64,000 nucleotides of DNA from Synechococcus sp. CS-1328 (GTDB taxonomy: Bacteria > Cyanobacteriota > Cyanobacteriia > PCC-6307 > Cyanobiaceae), in assembly GCF_025128095.1 (NCBI RefSeq), contig NZ_JAHLYT010000011.1:1-64000 (forward strand), given 5' to 3'. Below are positions 14,404-18,689 of the stretch, piece by piece; positions within the stretch are counted from its first letter, which is position 1, and the number at the start of each line of letters is the position of its first letter. Under the pieces are notes generated by a model, which did not search any database, was not told the DNA's origin, and saw only the letters and a list, made by a program, of their open reading frames with translations. The position numbers and the translations under genes are program-made.

Positions 14404-14826
14404 GGAGGGAAAGCAGGACATAAGCCGGGTTCTGTTCTCCACCGCCCGGAGGCGGGGAGGGTGATCATCTGTCTGGGACCGCCGTTACCGGCGGCCTCGA
14501 GCGGCGCACTTGGGGCGGGACGGGTGCCATGGCCAACCGTTGTCCCTGGGCCTTGCTCCCAGCCGGGGTTTACCGAGCCAGCACCTCTCGATGCTGCTGG
14601 TGCGCTCTTACCGCACCTTTGCACCCTTACCTGTGCACGGGTCGGGTTGCCCCGGTGCCCGGCCATCGGCGGTGTGTTTCTGTGGCACTCTCCTCACGGT
14701 CACCCGCACTGGGCGTTACCCAGCAAGCCTGGCCATTGGGGAGCCCGGACTTTCCTCAACCGGACGCCACCGCACCCCGAAAGGCCCAGCGTCTCCGATC
14801 GCGACCACCTCGCCTGCTTTCCGCCG
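14404..14826 (-). ncRNA. rnpB: RNase P RNA (M1-type)
   Basis: The catalytic RNA of RNase P, which cuts 5' leaders from tRNA precursors. On the minus strand the conserved blocks appear in order: GGAGGAAAGTCCGGGCTCC-like sequence (14740-14755), ACAGAAAC, GGTAAGGGTGCAAAGGTG, CGGTAAGAGC, AGACAGATGATC (14463-14474) and ACAGAACCCGGCTTA (14421-14435). Helix P1 is formed by CCTGCTTTCC at 14408-14417 (RNA sense) and GGAAAGCAGG at 14813-14822, fixing the ends to within a few bases. Short ORFs here are spurious. Confidence 0.95.
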
Positions 14827-15094: not shown

Positions 15095-15898
15095 ATGCAA
15101 GGTTCGATGCGACCGGCCGGTGGTGATGGGCTTGGGACAACGTTTCAGCTGATCCTGGCCGGGCTGGTGGCCCTGCTGATCCTGTTGAGCCAGACGATTT
15201 TCATCGTGCCCGCCGGCAATGTGGCGGTGGTGACGACCCTGGGCCGGGTGACCGGTGGGGAGCGCCGGCCAGGCCCCAACCTGAAGATTCCCCTGATCCA
15301 GGCCACGTCGTTCTTTGATGTGCGCACCCAGGTGCGGCCGGAGCAGTTCTCCACCCTGACCAAGGATCTGCAGGTGATCGAGGCCACGGCCACGATGAAG
15401 TACGCGATCCGGCCCAGCGAAGCGGGCCGGGTGTTCGAGACGATCGCCACCGACAACCAGCAGATCTACCCGCGGGTGATTCAGCCCTCGCTGCTCAAGG
15501 CCCTCAAGTCGGTGTTTTCCCAGTACGAGCTGGTCACGATCGCCACCGAGTGGAACAGCATCTCCGCATTGGTGCAGGACAAGGTGGCGGAGGAACTCAA
15601 GAAGTTCGATTACGTGACGGTGCAGGGCCTGGATCTCACCGGCCTGCAGATCGCCGAGGAATACCGCGCCGCCATTGAGCAGAAGCAGATCGCGGATCAG
15701 CGGTTGCTGCGCTCCCAGACCGAGGTGAAGATCGCCGAGCAGGAGGCCCTCCGCTACGAGATCCTCAACAAGAGCCTCGATGACCAGGTGCTCTACAAGC
15801 TCTTCCTCGACAAGTGGGACGGGCAGACCTCCGTGGTTCCGGCTCTTCCGGGAACTGCGGGCGGTACCCCGCCGGTGATCGTGCAGGGCCGGCGCTGA
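15095..15898 (+). CDS. Prohibitin/stomatin-like SPFH membrane protein
   Basis: A 267-residue protein with one N-terminal membrane helix (about residues 15-37), an SPFH/band-7 domain (about 38-190, opening VPAGNVAVVTTLGRVTGGE) and a charged coiled-coil-like tail (EEYRAAIEQKQIADQRLLR). SPFH proteins build large rings in the membrane and often partner with proteases. An AAGG ribosome-binding site precedes the ATG at 15095; 15107 is a second option. Its stop codon shares one base with the start of an aspartic-protease gene (TGATG), strongly implying joint translation and function. Its C-terminus is Gly/Pro-rich. Confidence 0.85.
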   Translation: MQGSMRPAGGDGLGTTFQLILAGLVALLILLSQTIFIVPAGNVAVVTTLGRVTGGERRPGPNLKIPLIQATSFFDVRTQVRPEQFSTLTKDLQVIEATATMKYAIRPSEAGRVFETIATDNQQIYPRVIQPSLLKALKSVFSQYELVTIATEWNSISALVQDKVAEELKKFDYVTVQGLDLTGLQIAEEYRAAIEQKQIADQRLLRSQTEVKIAEQEALRYEILNKSLDDQVLYKLFLDKWDGQTSVVPALPGTAGGTPPVIVQGRR

Positions 15899-16914
15899 TG
15901 CTGCAGGCGGCGGGGCTGGCCTCGGGGCTGGGGGCGGGGTTGGTTGCGGCCCTGATTCAGCTCCAGGGCCCGGCACTGAGGCCTGGAATCCTGGCGGGCT
16001 CGGTGACCCTGCCGCTGGAGCGCGCCGCCGGCGGTGACACACCGGTGCTCAGCCTGCGCAGCGATGGGCGGCCGGTGCGCTTCCTGGTCGATACCGGCGC
16101 CTCGTCCACCCTGGTGTCGCCGGATCTGGTGAAGCGGCTGGGTCTGGCCAGCACCCCGATCCCGCCGGCCGATTTCGGCCTTGCCGGCGCTGGCAACGGC
16201 TGCGGCACTCTGCAGCCGCGGCGCACGTCCCTGCCGCCTCTGAGCCTGTCGACACAGTCCCTGGCAACGCAGCGTCTGCCCACCCAGAGCCCGCCTTCCG
16301 AGGCGCCGGGAACCCTCAGCCTCATCGGCGCCGAGGCCCTGGTGTTGCCGGTGGGGGGCCTGCCGCCGGACGTGGACGGCGTGCTGGGGGCCCCACAGCT
16401 GCGCCAGTTGCCTCTCTGGATCGATCCCCGCGGCAGTGTGCTGGCCTTCGGTCGCAGTGCCCTGCAGGCTGCGGATCAGGCCTCTGATGGTCGGGCATCG
16501 AATCGGGGCTCCGGGGCCTCAGGCGAGGTGACGCTCCCCCTCCGCTGGCACCGCGGCGTGCCGCTGCTGTCCCTGGTCACCGGCAGCCGGGCCGGCACGG
16601 TCCAGGCCCTGGCCGACACCGGCGCCGAGGGGTTGTTCGTCACGCCGGAGCTGGCCATGGTGCTGCCGGCCCTCGGATCCAGCCAGCCCCTGCGGGTGGC
16701 GGGCTTCTGCGGCGAGCAACCGGCCAGCTGGACGCGGGTTCAGGGACCGAGCCTCAGCGGCCGCAGGCCAGCCGCACCGGTGCAGGCCATCCTCACGGCC
16801 AACCCGGTGTTCCAGGCCCTGGGGGTGGAGGCGATCGTGGGGCAGGAGCTGCTCCGCCCCCATCGCCAGCTCTGGCGCCTTGAAGCCACGCCGCCGACGC
16901 TGCGCCTCTGGTAA
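15898..16914 (+). CDS. Retropepsin-like aspartyl protease with two DTGA motifs
   Basis: A 338-residue protein with an N-terminal hydrophobic segment (about residues 5-22, likely signal or anchor) and two aspartic-protease half-sites: FLVDTGASSTLV with Asp65 and ALADTGAEGLFV with Asp240. Each half is retropepsin-like, so the single chain could fold as its own pseudo-dimer, as pepsins do; this is inference. The middle (about residues 100-145) is Ser/Pro/Gln-rich and likely a linker. It starts within the stop codon of the prohibitin-like gene. The substrate is unknown; the location is probably periplasmic or lumenal. Confidence 0.8.
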   Translation: MLQAAGLASGLGAGLVAALIQLQGPALRPGILAGSVTLPLERAAGGDTPVLSLRSDGRPVRFLVDTGASSTLVSPDLVKRLGLASTPIPPADFGLAGAGNGCGTLQPRRTSLPPLSLSTQSLATQRLPTQSPPSEAPGTLSLIGAEALVLPVGGLPPDVDGVLGAPQLRQLPLWIDPRGSVLAFGRSALQAADQASDGRASNRGSGASGEVTLPLRWHRGVPLLSLVTGSRAGTVQALADTGAEGLFVTPELAMVLPALGSSQPLRVAGFCGEQPASWTRVQGPSLSGRRPAAPVQAILTANPVFQALGVEAIVGQELLRPHRQLWRLEATPPTLRLW

Positions 16915-17004: not shown

Positions 17005-17967
17005 ATGGTGGCACTGCTGGTCTATGTGGTGCTGAAGGGTCTGGAGAGCACCGTCGTGCGGGCGCTGCAGCTCCAGGGCGCCCGCCATCCGGTGGATGGC
17101 ATCAACCCGATCAGTGCCTGCAATCTGTTTTTCTTCGCCCTGGTGGTGGTGGGTACGAGTCTGGTGCTGGCCGACCGGAGCACCCTGCAGCGGCAGCTGC
17201 CGCTGCTGCATCGCCGCCAGTGGCAGCTGCTGGCTCTCGACATGCTGGCCGGCAGCCTGCTGGGCCCCCTCGGCAGCTTCATGGCCATCGAGGCTCTGGC
17301 TGTGATCGAGAAGACCCTGGTGTTCAGCCTGGTGCTGCCTGCTTCGGCGCTGCTGTCGTGGCTGTGGCTGGGCGAGCCGCTGCCCCGCCGCTTCTGGCTC
17401 ACCACTGTCGTGATCGGCCTGGGGCTGGGATTGGCCTCCCTCGGCAGCGGGGTGCCGAGGGGGATGGACCGGTTGTCGGGCCTGGCCTGGGGGGGCGTGG
17501 GTGTGGCGGGGTTCTCCTGCAGTGCGGTCACGGCCCGGCGGCTGAATCGGGACGGCCTCGGTATCGGGCTCACCACCGGTCTGCCGTCGCTGCTGGCGGC
17601 GCTGCTGTTTCTGCTGATCGGTCTGGTGCTCTACGGCCCAGGGCACTTCATGCATCTGCAGCTCTGGTGGGTGGCTGGGGTGATCGGGCTCTATGCCATC
17701 ACCGTGGTGCTGGGCAGTGAGTGCAGCCTGCGCCTCTGTTACCGGCGCTTCAGCGTGGCCACCGTGGCCATCGTCGGGTCGTTGAGCCTGGCAGTTTCGG
17801 TGGTCAGTGCGGCGGTGGTGCTGGCCGAGCCGCTGCGCATGCCGGTGCTGCTGGGCTCGGGGCTGGTGCTGCTGGGCGTGATGCTGGCGGTTCGCGCGGC
17901 TCCGATCGCGGCTGCATCCAGCGCGGCCTCCTCCAGTGGGGCGGCAACCCTGCGGACAGACGGCTGA
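17005..17967 (+). CDS. EamA/DMT-superfamily permease
   Basis: A 320-residue integral membrane protein with about ten hydrophobic helices arranged as two five-helix EamA repeats. The conserved glutamate after the fourth helix of each half is visible (WLGEPLP near residue 123 and VLAEPLR near residue 275). The family exports or imports metabolites such as amino acids or nucleotide sugars; the substrate cannot be assigned. It has its own ATG about 90 bases after the protease gene and is followed by an ABC pair on the same strand. Confidence 0.82.
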   Translation: MVALLVYVVLKGLESTVVRALQLQGARHPVDGINPISACNLFFFALVVVGTSLVLADRSTLQRQLPLLHRRQWQLLALDMLAGSLLGPLGSFMAIEALAVIEKTLVFSLVLPASALLSWLWLGEPLPRRFWLTTVVIGLGLGLASLGSGVPRGMDRLSGLAWGGVGVAGFSCSAVTARRLNRDGLGIGLTTGLPSLLAALLFLLIGLVLYGPGHFMHLQLWWVAGVIGLYAITVVLGSECSLRLCYRRFSVATVAIVGSLSLAVSVVSAAVVLAEPLRMPVLLGSGLVLLGVMLAVRAAPIAAASSAASSSGAATLRTDG

Positions 17968-18035: not shown

Positions 18036-18689
18036 ATGGGCAACGACGACACGCTGCTCCTGCAGGCCCAGGGGCTGGATCGACAGCTGGGGCCACGCTG
18101 GCTCTGGCGGGATCTCGCGCTGCAGTTGCAGCCCGGTGACCGCTTGGCCCTGGTGGCACCCTCCGGTGCGGGCAAGACCCTGCTGCTGCGCAGCCTGGCC
18201 CTGCTGGATCCGCTGCAGCAGGGTGAGCTTTTTCTTCGGGGCCGCACGCCTGCGGCCTGGGGCCTGCCCGTGTGGCGTTCACGCCTGATCTATCTGGCCC
18301 AGCGGCCGGTGCTGTTTCCCGGCACGGTGCGGGACAACCTGCAGGCGGTGTTTCAGCTGGCCGTGCATCAGCAACGCCACTGGCAGCCGGAGACCCTGGC
18401 GGGCTGGCTGGAGAGCCTGGGGCGCGACGAGACGTTTCTCGACCTCGATGCCGAGCGGCTCTCCGGTGGCGAAGCCCAGCTGCTCAATCTGCTGCGGGCT
18501 CTGCAGCTCGATCCCGACATCCTGCTGCTGGATGAACCCACCGCCTCCCTGGATCCGGCCTCCACGGCGGCGGTGGAGGACCTGCTGGCCGGCTGGCTGG
18601 AGGCGGGCGACCGGGCCTGCGTGATCACCAGCCACGACGGCGAGCAGCTGCGCCGCTTCGGCAACCGCCGCCTGGAGCTGGCCGTATGA
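18036..18689 (+). CDS. ABC transporter ATP-binding protein, FetA-like
   Basis: A 217-residue ATPase with Walker A APSGAGKTLL (about residue 40), Q-loop LAQRPVLFPG, signature LSGGEAQLLNLLRAL and Walker B ILLLDEPTASLD. The FPGTVRDNL stretch and the short length fit the FetA/YbbL group. It overlaps the next gene, a FetB/UPF0014 permease, by four bases (ATGA). In E. coli FetAB is linked to iron export and oxidative-stress resistance; the same role here is inferred. The start at 18036 has an upstream AGGA. Confidence 0.85.
   Translation: MGNDDTLLLQAQGLDRQLGPRWLWRDLALQLQPGDRLALVAPSGAGKTLLLRSLALLDPLQQGELFLRGRTPAAWGLPVWRSRLIYLAQRPVLFPGTVRDNLQAVFQLAVHQQRHWQPETLAGWLESLGRDETFLDLDAERLSGGEAQLLNLLRALQLDPDILLLDEPTASLDPASTAAVEDLLAGWLEAGDRACVITSHDGEQLRRFGNRRLELAV

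Follow-up and report, generated by a model that had tools for sequence, protein, structure and literature searches.

HflK/HflC with FtsH and stomatin with NfeD are known pairs of an SPFH protein and a protease, in which the two stand next to each other as they do in the window analysed here (a stretch of 64,000 nucleotides from Synechococcus sp. CS-1328, contig NZ_JAHLYT010000011.1). In contrast to these pairs, the protease of the window is of a different class, the adjacency is not conserved and the scores of the SPFH gene for HflC and HflK lie far under the cut-off. Aspartic proteases of the pepsin family A1, including the bacterial shewasins (PMC2761423, PMC4814920), are likewise single chains of two lobes, each with a DTG-type Asp and a hydrophobic-hydrophobic-Gly motif; the window protease differs from them in matching the Asp_protease_2 and gag-asp_proteas profiles and no A1 profile, and in having lobes that keep detectable sequence similarity, while in pepsin inter-lobe sequence similarity is confined to the motifs (PMC2761423). 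APRc (PMC4140852), RloA and RimB (PMC12239564, PMC11957791), which are retropepsin-like proteases of bacteria, share with it the DTG site of clan AA, but these are described as retropepsin-like enzymes with one such site, whereas the window protease fuses two lobes; among the RloA proteins, which are exported, one has its gene in the same operon as a membrane protein gene (PMC12239564). The solved structure closest to the window protease over both lobes is 9iy9, a putative endopeptidase from Bacteroides fragilis (PDB, released in 2025) of 420 residues, the match being confined to its residues 141-437 at 15% identity; our literature search found no paper describing this structure. Finally, CPBP/CAAX (Rce1-like) membrane proteases (PF02517) are a recurrent downstream neighbour of the protease gene in relatives, and in the genome of the window (G000) such a gene lies outside the window.

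The initial annotation proposed that a prohibitin-like gene and the following gene for a membrane-anchored aspartic protease with two DTGA sites form a new SPFH-protease module. The features of the locus are as follows.

14406-14820, - strand: gene for RNase P RNA (RF00010, 220.9 bits), flanked by RNase III and tRNA-Arg (CCT)
15095..15898, + strand: prohibitin-like gene of the SPFH/Band 7 superfamily, encoding 267 aa with a single hydrophobic segment at the N terminus
15898..15898, + strand: base in which the TGA stop of SPFH and the ATG start of the protease overlap, the shared A of TGATG
15898..16914, + strand: bilobed (tandem retropepsin-like) aspartic protease gene, 338 aa, assigned from two stretches for each Pfam profile, a structure model and a fold search
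16090..16101, + strand: catalytic motif DTGA of lobe 1 (Asp65); D, G and A invariant with T or S between in 34 relatives
16258..16308, + strand: Ser/Pro/Thr/Gln-rich insertion inside lobe 1, residues ~121-137, a gap in most relatives, with low pLDDT
16375..16389, + strand: hydrophobic-hydrophobic-Gly (psi-loop) motif DGVLG of lobe 1, invariant in 34 relatives
16615..16626, + strand: catalytic motif DTGA of lobe 2 (Asp240), the Asp invariant in 34 relatives
16828..16845, + strand: psi-loop motif EAIVGQ of lobe 2, with G315 and Q316 unchanged across the 34 relatives
17005..17967, + strand: EamA/DMT-family transporter gene, 3' of the protease (EamA E 1.7e-10)

Upstream of the SPFH gene lie RNase III (-), RNase P RNA (-) and tRNA-Arg, and the open reading frames listed within the RNase P RNA gene (14406-14820) are spurious; downstream of the protease the EamA/DMT transporter is followed by a FetAB-like ABC transporter. 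The stop of the SPFH frame (15095-15898) and the start of the protease frame (15898-16914) do have one base in common (TGATG), as first annotated. Genes on one strand commonly overlap by a few bases, and since the fetA/fetB-like genes of the same window also overlap, by 4 bases (18686-18689), the one-base overlap carries little weight alone.

The SPFH gene belongs to the SPFH/Band 7 family by its Pfam match (Band_7 E 7.4e-30, 104.7 bits against a cut-off of 23.6). Its best solved-structure match is Prohibitin-2 (8rrh_B, E 2.6e-18), and Prohibitin-2 and Prohibitin 1 are its best PDB sequence matches. It scored below the NCBIfam equivalog cut-offs for both hflC (41.9 vs 134.4 bits) and hflK (25.2 vs 159.4).

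The 338-aa protease frame carries the two annotated DTGA sites, at Asp65 (nt 16090) and Asp240 (nt 16615). It matches Asp_protease_2 (E 1.2e-13) and gag-asp_proteas (E 6.7e-13) in Pfam over two stretches each, the PF13650 score being 52.0 bits against a cut-off of 24.3 over two stretches; with matches taken up to E 1, the pepsin (A1) profile did not appear, and PF13650 and PF13975 match instead. An alignment of 34 relatives showed no variation at Asp65, Gly67, Ala68, Asp240, Ala243, Gly315-Gln316 or within the DGVLG motif, and showed that ALADTGAEGLF surrounds Asp240 in 30 of the 34. Each lobe thus has the D[TS]G and the hydrophobic-hydrophobic-Gly psi-loop that define clan AA, and both are kept in the 34 relatives. 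The two lobes are homologous, since their profiles align with a probability of 95.8 over 109 columns (32% identity). Having two homologous lobes in one chain, the protein is not of the retropepsin (A2-like) type, in which a single lobe works as a homodimer. In both lobes Ala directly follows DTG, the residue tied to activity at neutral pH (PMC2761423), from which a neutral pH preference of the predicted protease may be inferred.

When the protease alignment was searched against the sequences of solved structures, the matches were weak only; the best was ankyrin-2 (E 0.008), a chance-type match, followed by DDI1 and retroviral proteases. A fold search was therefore needed. The AlphaFold model built with 34 sequences is confident (mean pLDDT 86.6, pTM 0.86), and with VIA-align its best structural match is 9iy9 (Z 20.6, rmsd 3.1, 257 residues, model 25-338). 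Bilobed proteases align across both model lobes at Z 15-20 and pepsins at Z about 15-16; rhizopuspepsin 8fxq, for instance, aligns at Z 16.1 (rmsd 3.6, 246 residues, model 33-338), so that at the level of the model the single-chain bilobed fold of pepsin A1 is found over residues 33-338. Foldseek gives moderate TM-scores, no higher than 0.55 on the query, and the lobes may therefore sit at a somewhat different angle. Because one superposition covers both lobes, Asp65 and Asp240 are expected to face each other in one active site as in pepsin. Modelling whether the two Asp can meet had been suggested beforehand, and the superposition of a confident bilobed model on pepsins supports that they can; with the invariant Asp, the homologous lobes and the bilobed fold, the single-chain, two-site protease first described is borne out at model level.

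Two further details of that description need correction. The Ser/Pro-rich stretch, taken for a linker between the two DTGA sites, is an insertion within lobe 1 (~121-137); residues 121-140 have a pLDDT of 54-68, and most relatives lack the stretch. A membrane anchor on the protease is not supported either, the hydrophobic AALIQL segment being the first beta strand of the model. Several relatives have apparent ordinary export signals that end just ahead of the segment equivalent to AALIQL, and the export signal of the window protease is weak, with no basic residue near the ATG. Judged from the signals of the relatives, the protease is likelier an exported soluble enzyme than an anchored one.

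To place the pairing in its lineage, we surveyed 151 genomes, one per species, sampled from a larger family. The protease was found in 23 of them, one having a weak, interrupted match only. Two-lobed relatives also occur in other cyanobacterial families (six genomes, E about 1e-48 to 1e-51). Direct adjacency of SPFH and protease is restricted to G000 and G023, two species of one genus, among the 151 family genomes; the pairing is therefore very nearly confined to one strain, an outcome named beforehand as one that would refute a module. In the sister species G023, a complete chromosome in a single contig, the same TGATG overlap joins the two genes, and the protease is broken: a deletion of 140 nt has eliminated about residues 37-83, the first DTGA among them, and put the sequence out of frame. 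Its stop codon has been lost as well. We considered a sequencing or assembly error unlikely, given the 140-nt length of the deletion, the single-contig genome and the additional loss of the stop codon. Over the 241 remaining codons dN/dS between G000 and G023 is 0.30, close to that of the transporter (0.29) and RNase III (0.34), which argues that the protease was under selection for most of the time since the two species split. The loss in G023 is probably recent, and the copy in the window is probably functional. In G098 (locus L083) the EamA/DMT transporter homologue stands directly behind SPFH with no protease between.

The most recurrent neighbour of the protease is another gene. In 21 of 39 loci a CPBP/CAAX-type (PF02517) membrane protease gene lies 3' of the protease on the same strand, next or next but one; 13 of these have a long form of CPBP (about 830 aa) and 8 a short form (about 187 aa), with the odd contig L114 not counted. 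The protease and CPBP genes overlap by ATGA in L096, L101, L106 and L107 and by GTG..TGA in L100 and L119. Long CPBP was found in 18 of 22 protease carriers against 13 of 129 other genomes, a co-occurrence inflated by shared ancestry as the genomes are not independent. On the protease tree the linkage is clustered: clades that have it appear at several points. It is absent in many clades, including the nearest protease relatives of the window (G071, G120 and CACIAM 14), absence of CPBP being judged by similarity to the queries used, so that CPBP is not an obligate neighbour. From gene order and co-occurrence, the best-supported partnership of the aspartic protease would be with CPBP, not with SPFH.

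Several CPBP loci show peculiarities of their own. In most g35 genomes a zinc-ribbon gene lies between protease and CPBP (L067 5903-7231, -), and residues 1-650 of the long CPBP (L075 5583-8072, +) form a large N-terminal region without Pfam match at E 0.01. In Synechococcus sp. SynAce01 (complete chromosome; L119/L080) the protease is little more than its second lobe, with the downstream CPBP intact. In Synechococcus sp. WH 5701 (L094 10362-14340) the CPBP coding sequence is apparently interrupted at residue 217 by about 1.7 kb of DNA, which may be an inserted element. The L114 contig, labelled as a Bifidobacterium breve MAG, bears a cyanobacterial protease-CPBP pair and is for this reason probably misbinned.

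The long CPBP gene of the window genome is found on another contig (contig 6; L085 5898-9433, -), beside RodZ-like and polyprenyl synthetase-like genes. The order in G048 (L071) is polyprenyl synthetase, RodZ-like, protease, CPBP, and contig 6 of G000 has the same order minus the protease, the flanking genes of the two genomes being 88% identical (polyprenyl synthetase-like) and 49% identical over 75 residues (RodZ-like). No protease remnant was found in the 143-nt gap between the RodZ-like and CPBP genes of G000 contig 6. The simplest reading of these gene orders is that the protease left the RodZ-like/CPBP slot in the genus of the window.

These data bear on the meaning of the pairing in different ways. 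If SPFH and the aspartic protease formed a true module, a ring or cage of SPFH would recruit, confine or regulate the protease as HflKC does with FtsH, and the overlap would match the amounts of the two proteins. Both sampled species of the genus do share the gene order and the one-base overlap, and SPFH lies 2.9-4.3 kb from the protease in two other genera, g35 and g48; in these genera, however, the two genes are convergent with CPBP between them. Moreover, SPFH is present in 125 of the 151 genomes against only 23 for the protease. In G023 the protease copy is a pseudogene, whereas the SPFH gene remains strongly constrained (dN/dS 0.07, G000 vs G023). SPFH was near the protease in 0 of 11 loci outside the family. 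With adjacency restricted to one genus and the protease broken in one of its two species, the pair is not supported as a conserved unit: the neighbourhood survey proposed at the outset found no adjacency across distant lineages, and we regard such a module as very improbable. The opposite view, that the window protease is already being lost and that nothing should be read into where it stands relative to SPFH, would agree with the broken G023 copy and with the retention of the second lobe only in SynAce01 (L119/L080), but the window copy has intact catalytic motifs, psi-loops and a full frame, and its dN/dS of 0.30 over comparable codons is like that of neighbouring functional genes, which leaves this view improbable.

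A looser arrangement has somewhat more in its favour, and is still unlikely in our estimation: SPFH, CPBP and the bilobed protease would make up a three-part membrane-proteolysis neighbourhood, reshuffled yet kept by cooperation of the products. In 16 genomes of g35, g48, g37 and g6 the distance between SPFH and CPBP is 0.4-1.8 kb, and the protease is beside CPBP in g35, g48 and g51 and beside SPFH in g1. The SPFH-CPBP pairs are, however, convergent or divergent and never close same-strand neighbours, the genes are far apart in g30, g51 and g54, and the proximity is accounted for by a gene order inherited in common. Taken further, the three could be one cooperating system in Cyanobium-like cyanobacteria, in which the two proteases would cleave shared membrane substrates one after the other under an SPFH scaffold, a suggestion to which we give little credence.

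We therefore favour, as probable, a joint reading in which an exported bilobed protease, usually linked to CPBP, moved behind SPFH in one genus. The protease would be an exported, pepsin-shaped enzyme of two homologous retropepsin-like lobes in one chain, with Asp65 and Asp240 as the predicted single catalytic dyad, and as the dyad would form within one chain, no homodimer would be needed. It would probably work alongside the CPBP/CAAX-type membrane protease that is most often its genomic companion, and its role may be to cleave exposed regions of envelope or thylakoid-lumen proteins, either ahead of the intramembrane action of CPBP or following it. Its place behind SPFH would be a rearrangement derived in one genus from the slot between the RodZ-like and CPBP genes, and at the new site it probably borrows the SPFH transcript, with which it would be co-transcribed, and translational coupling.

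The proposal that SPFH and the protease make up a new module is thus not upheld. A cyanobacterial single-chain family with lobes that are still alike in sequence offers a bacterial case for the transition from dimeric retropepsin-like to bilobed pepsin-like enzymes, which in pepsin itself is too old for sequence tracing. Furthermore, the recurrent linkage of the protease to CPBP by overlapping genes suggests a testable partnership of two protease classes; we found no description of it in the literature searched, where nothing directly relevant turned up on CPBP with aspartic proteases or on cyanobacterial retropepsins.

In the 11 loci of other cyanobacterial families, neither this SPFH nor CPBP was found within about 5 kb of the protease. 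In three of them (L155 4088-5904, L156 3867-5686 and L159 4058-5907) the protease directly follows a gene read by eye as YebC-like, and the ends of the two genes overlap in two of the three.
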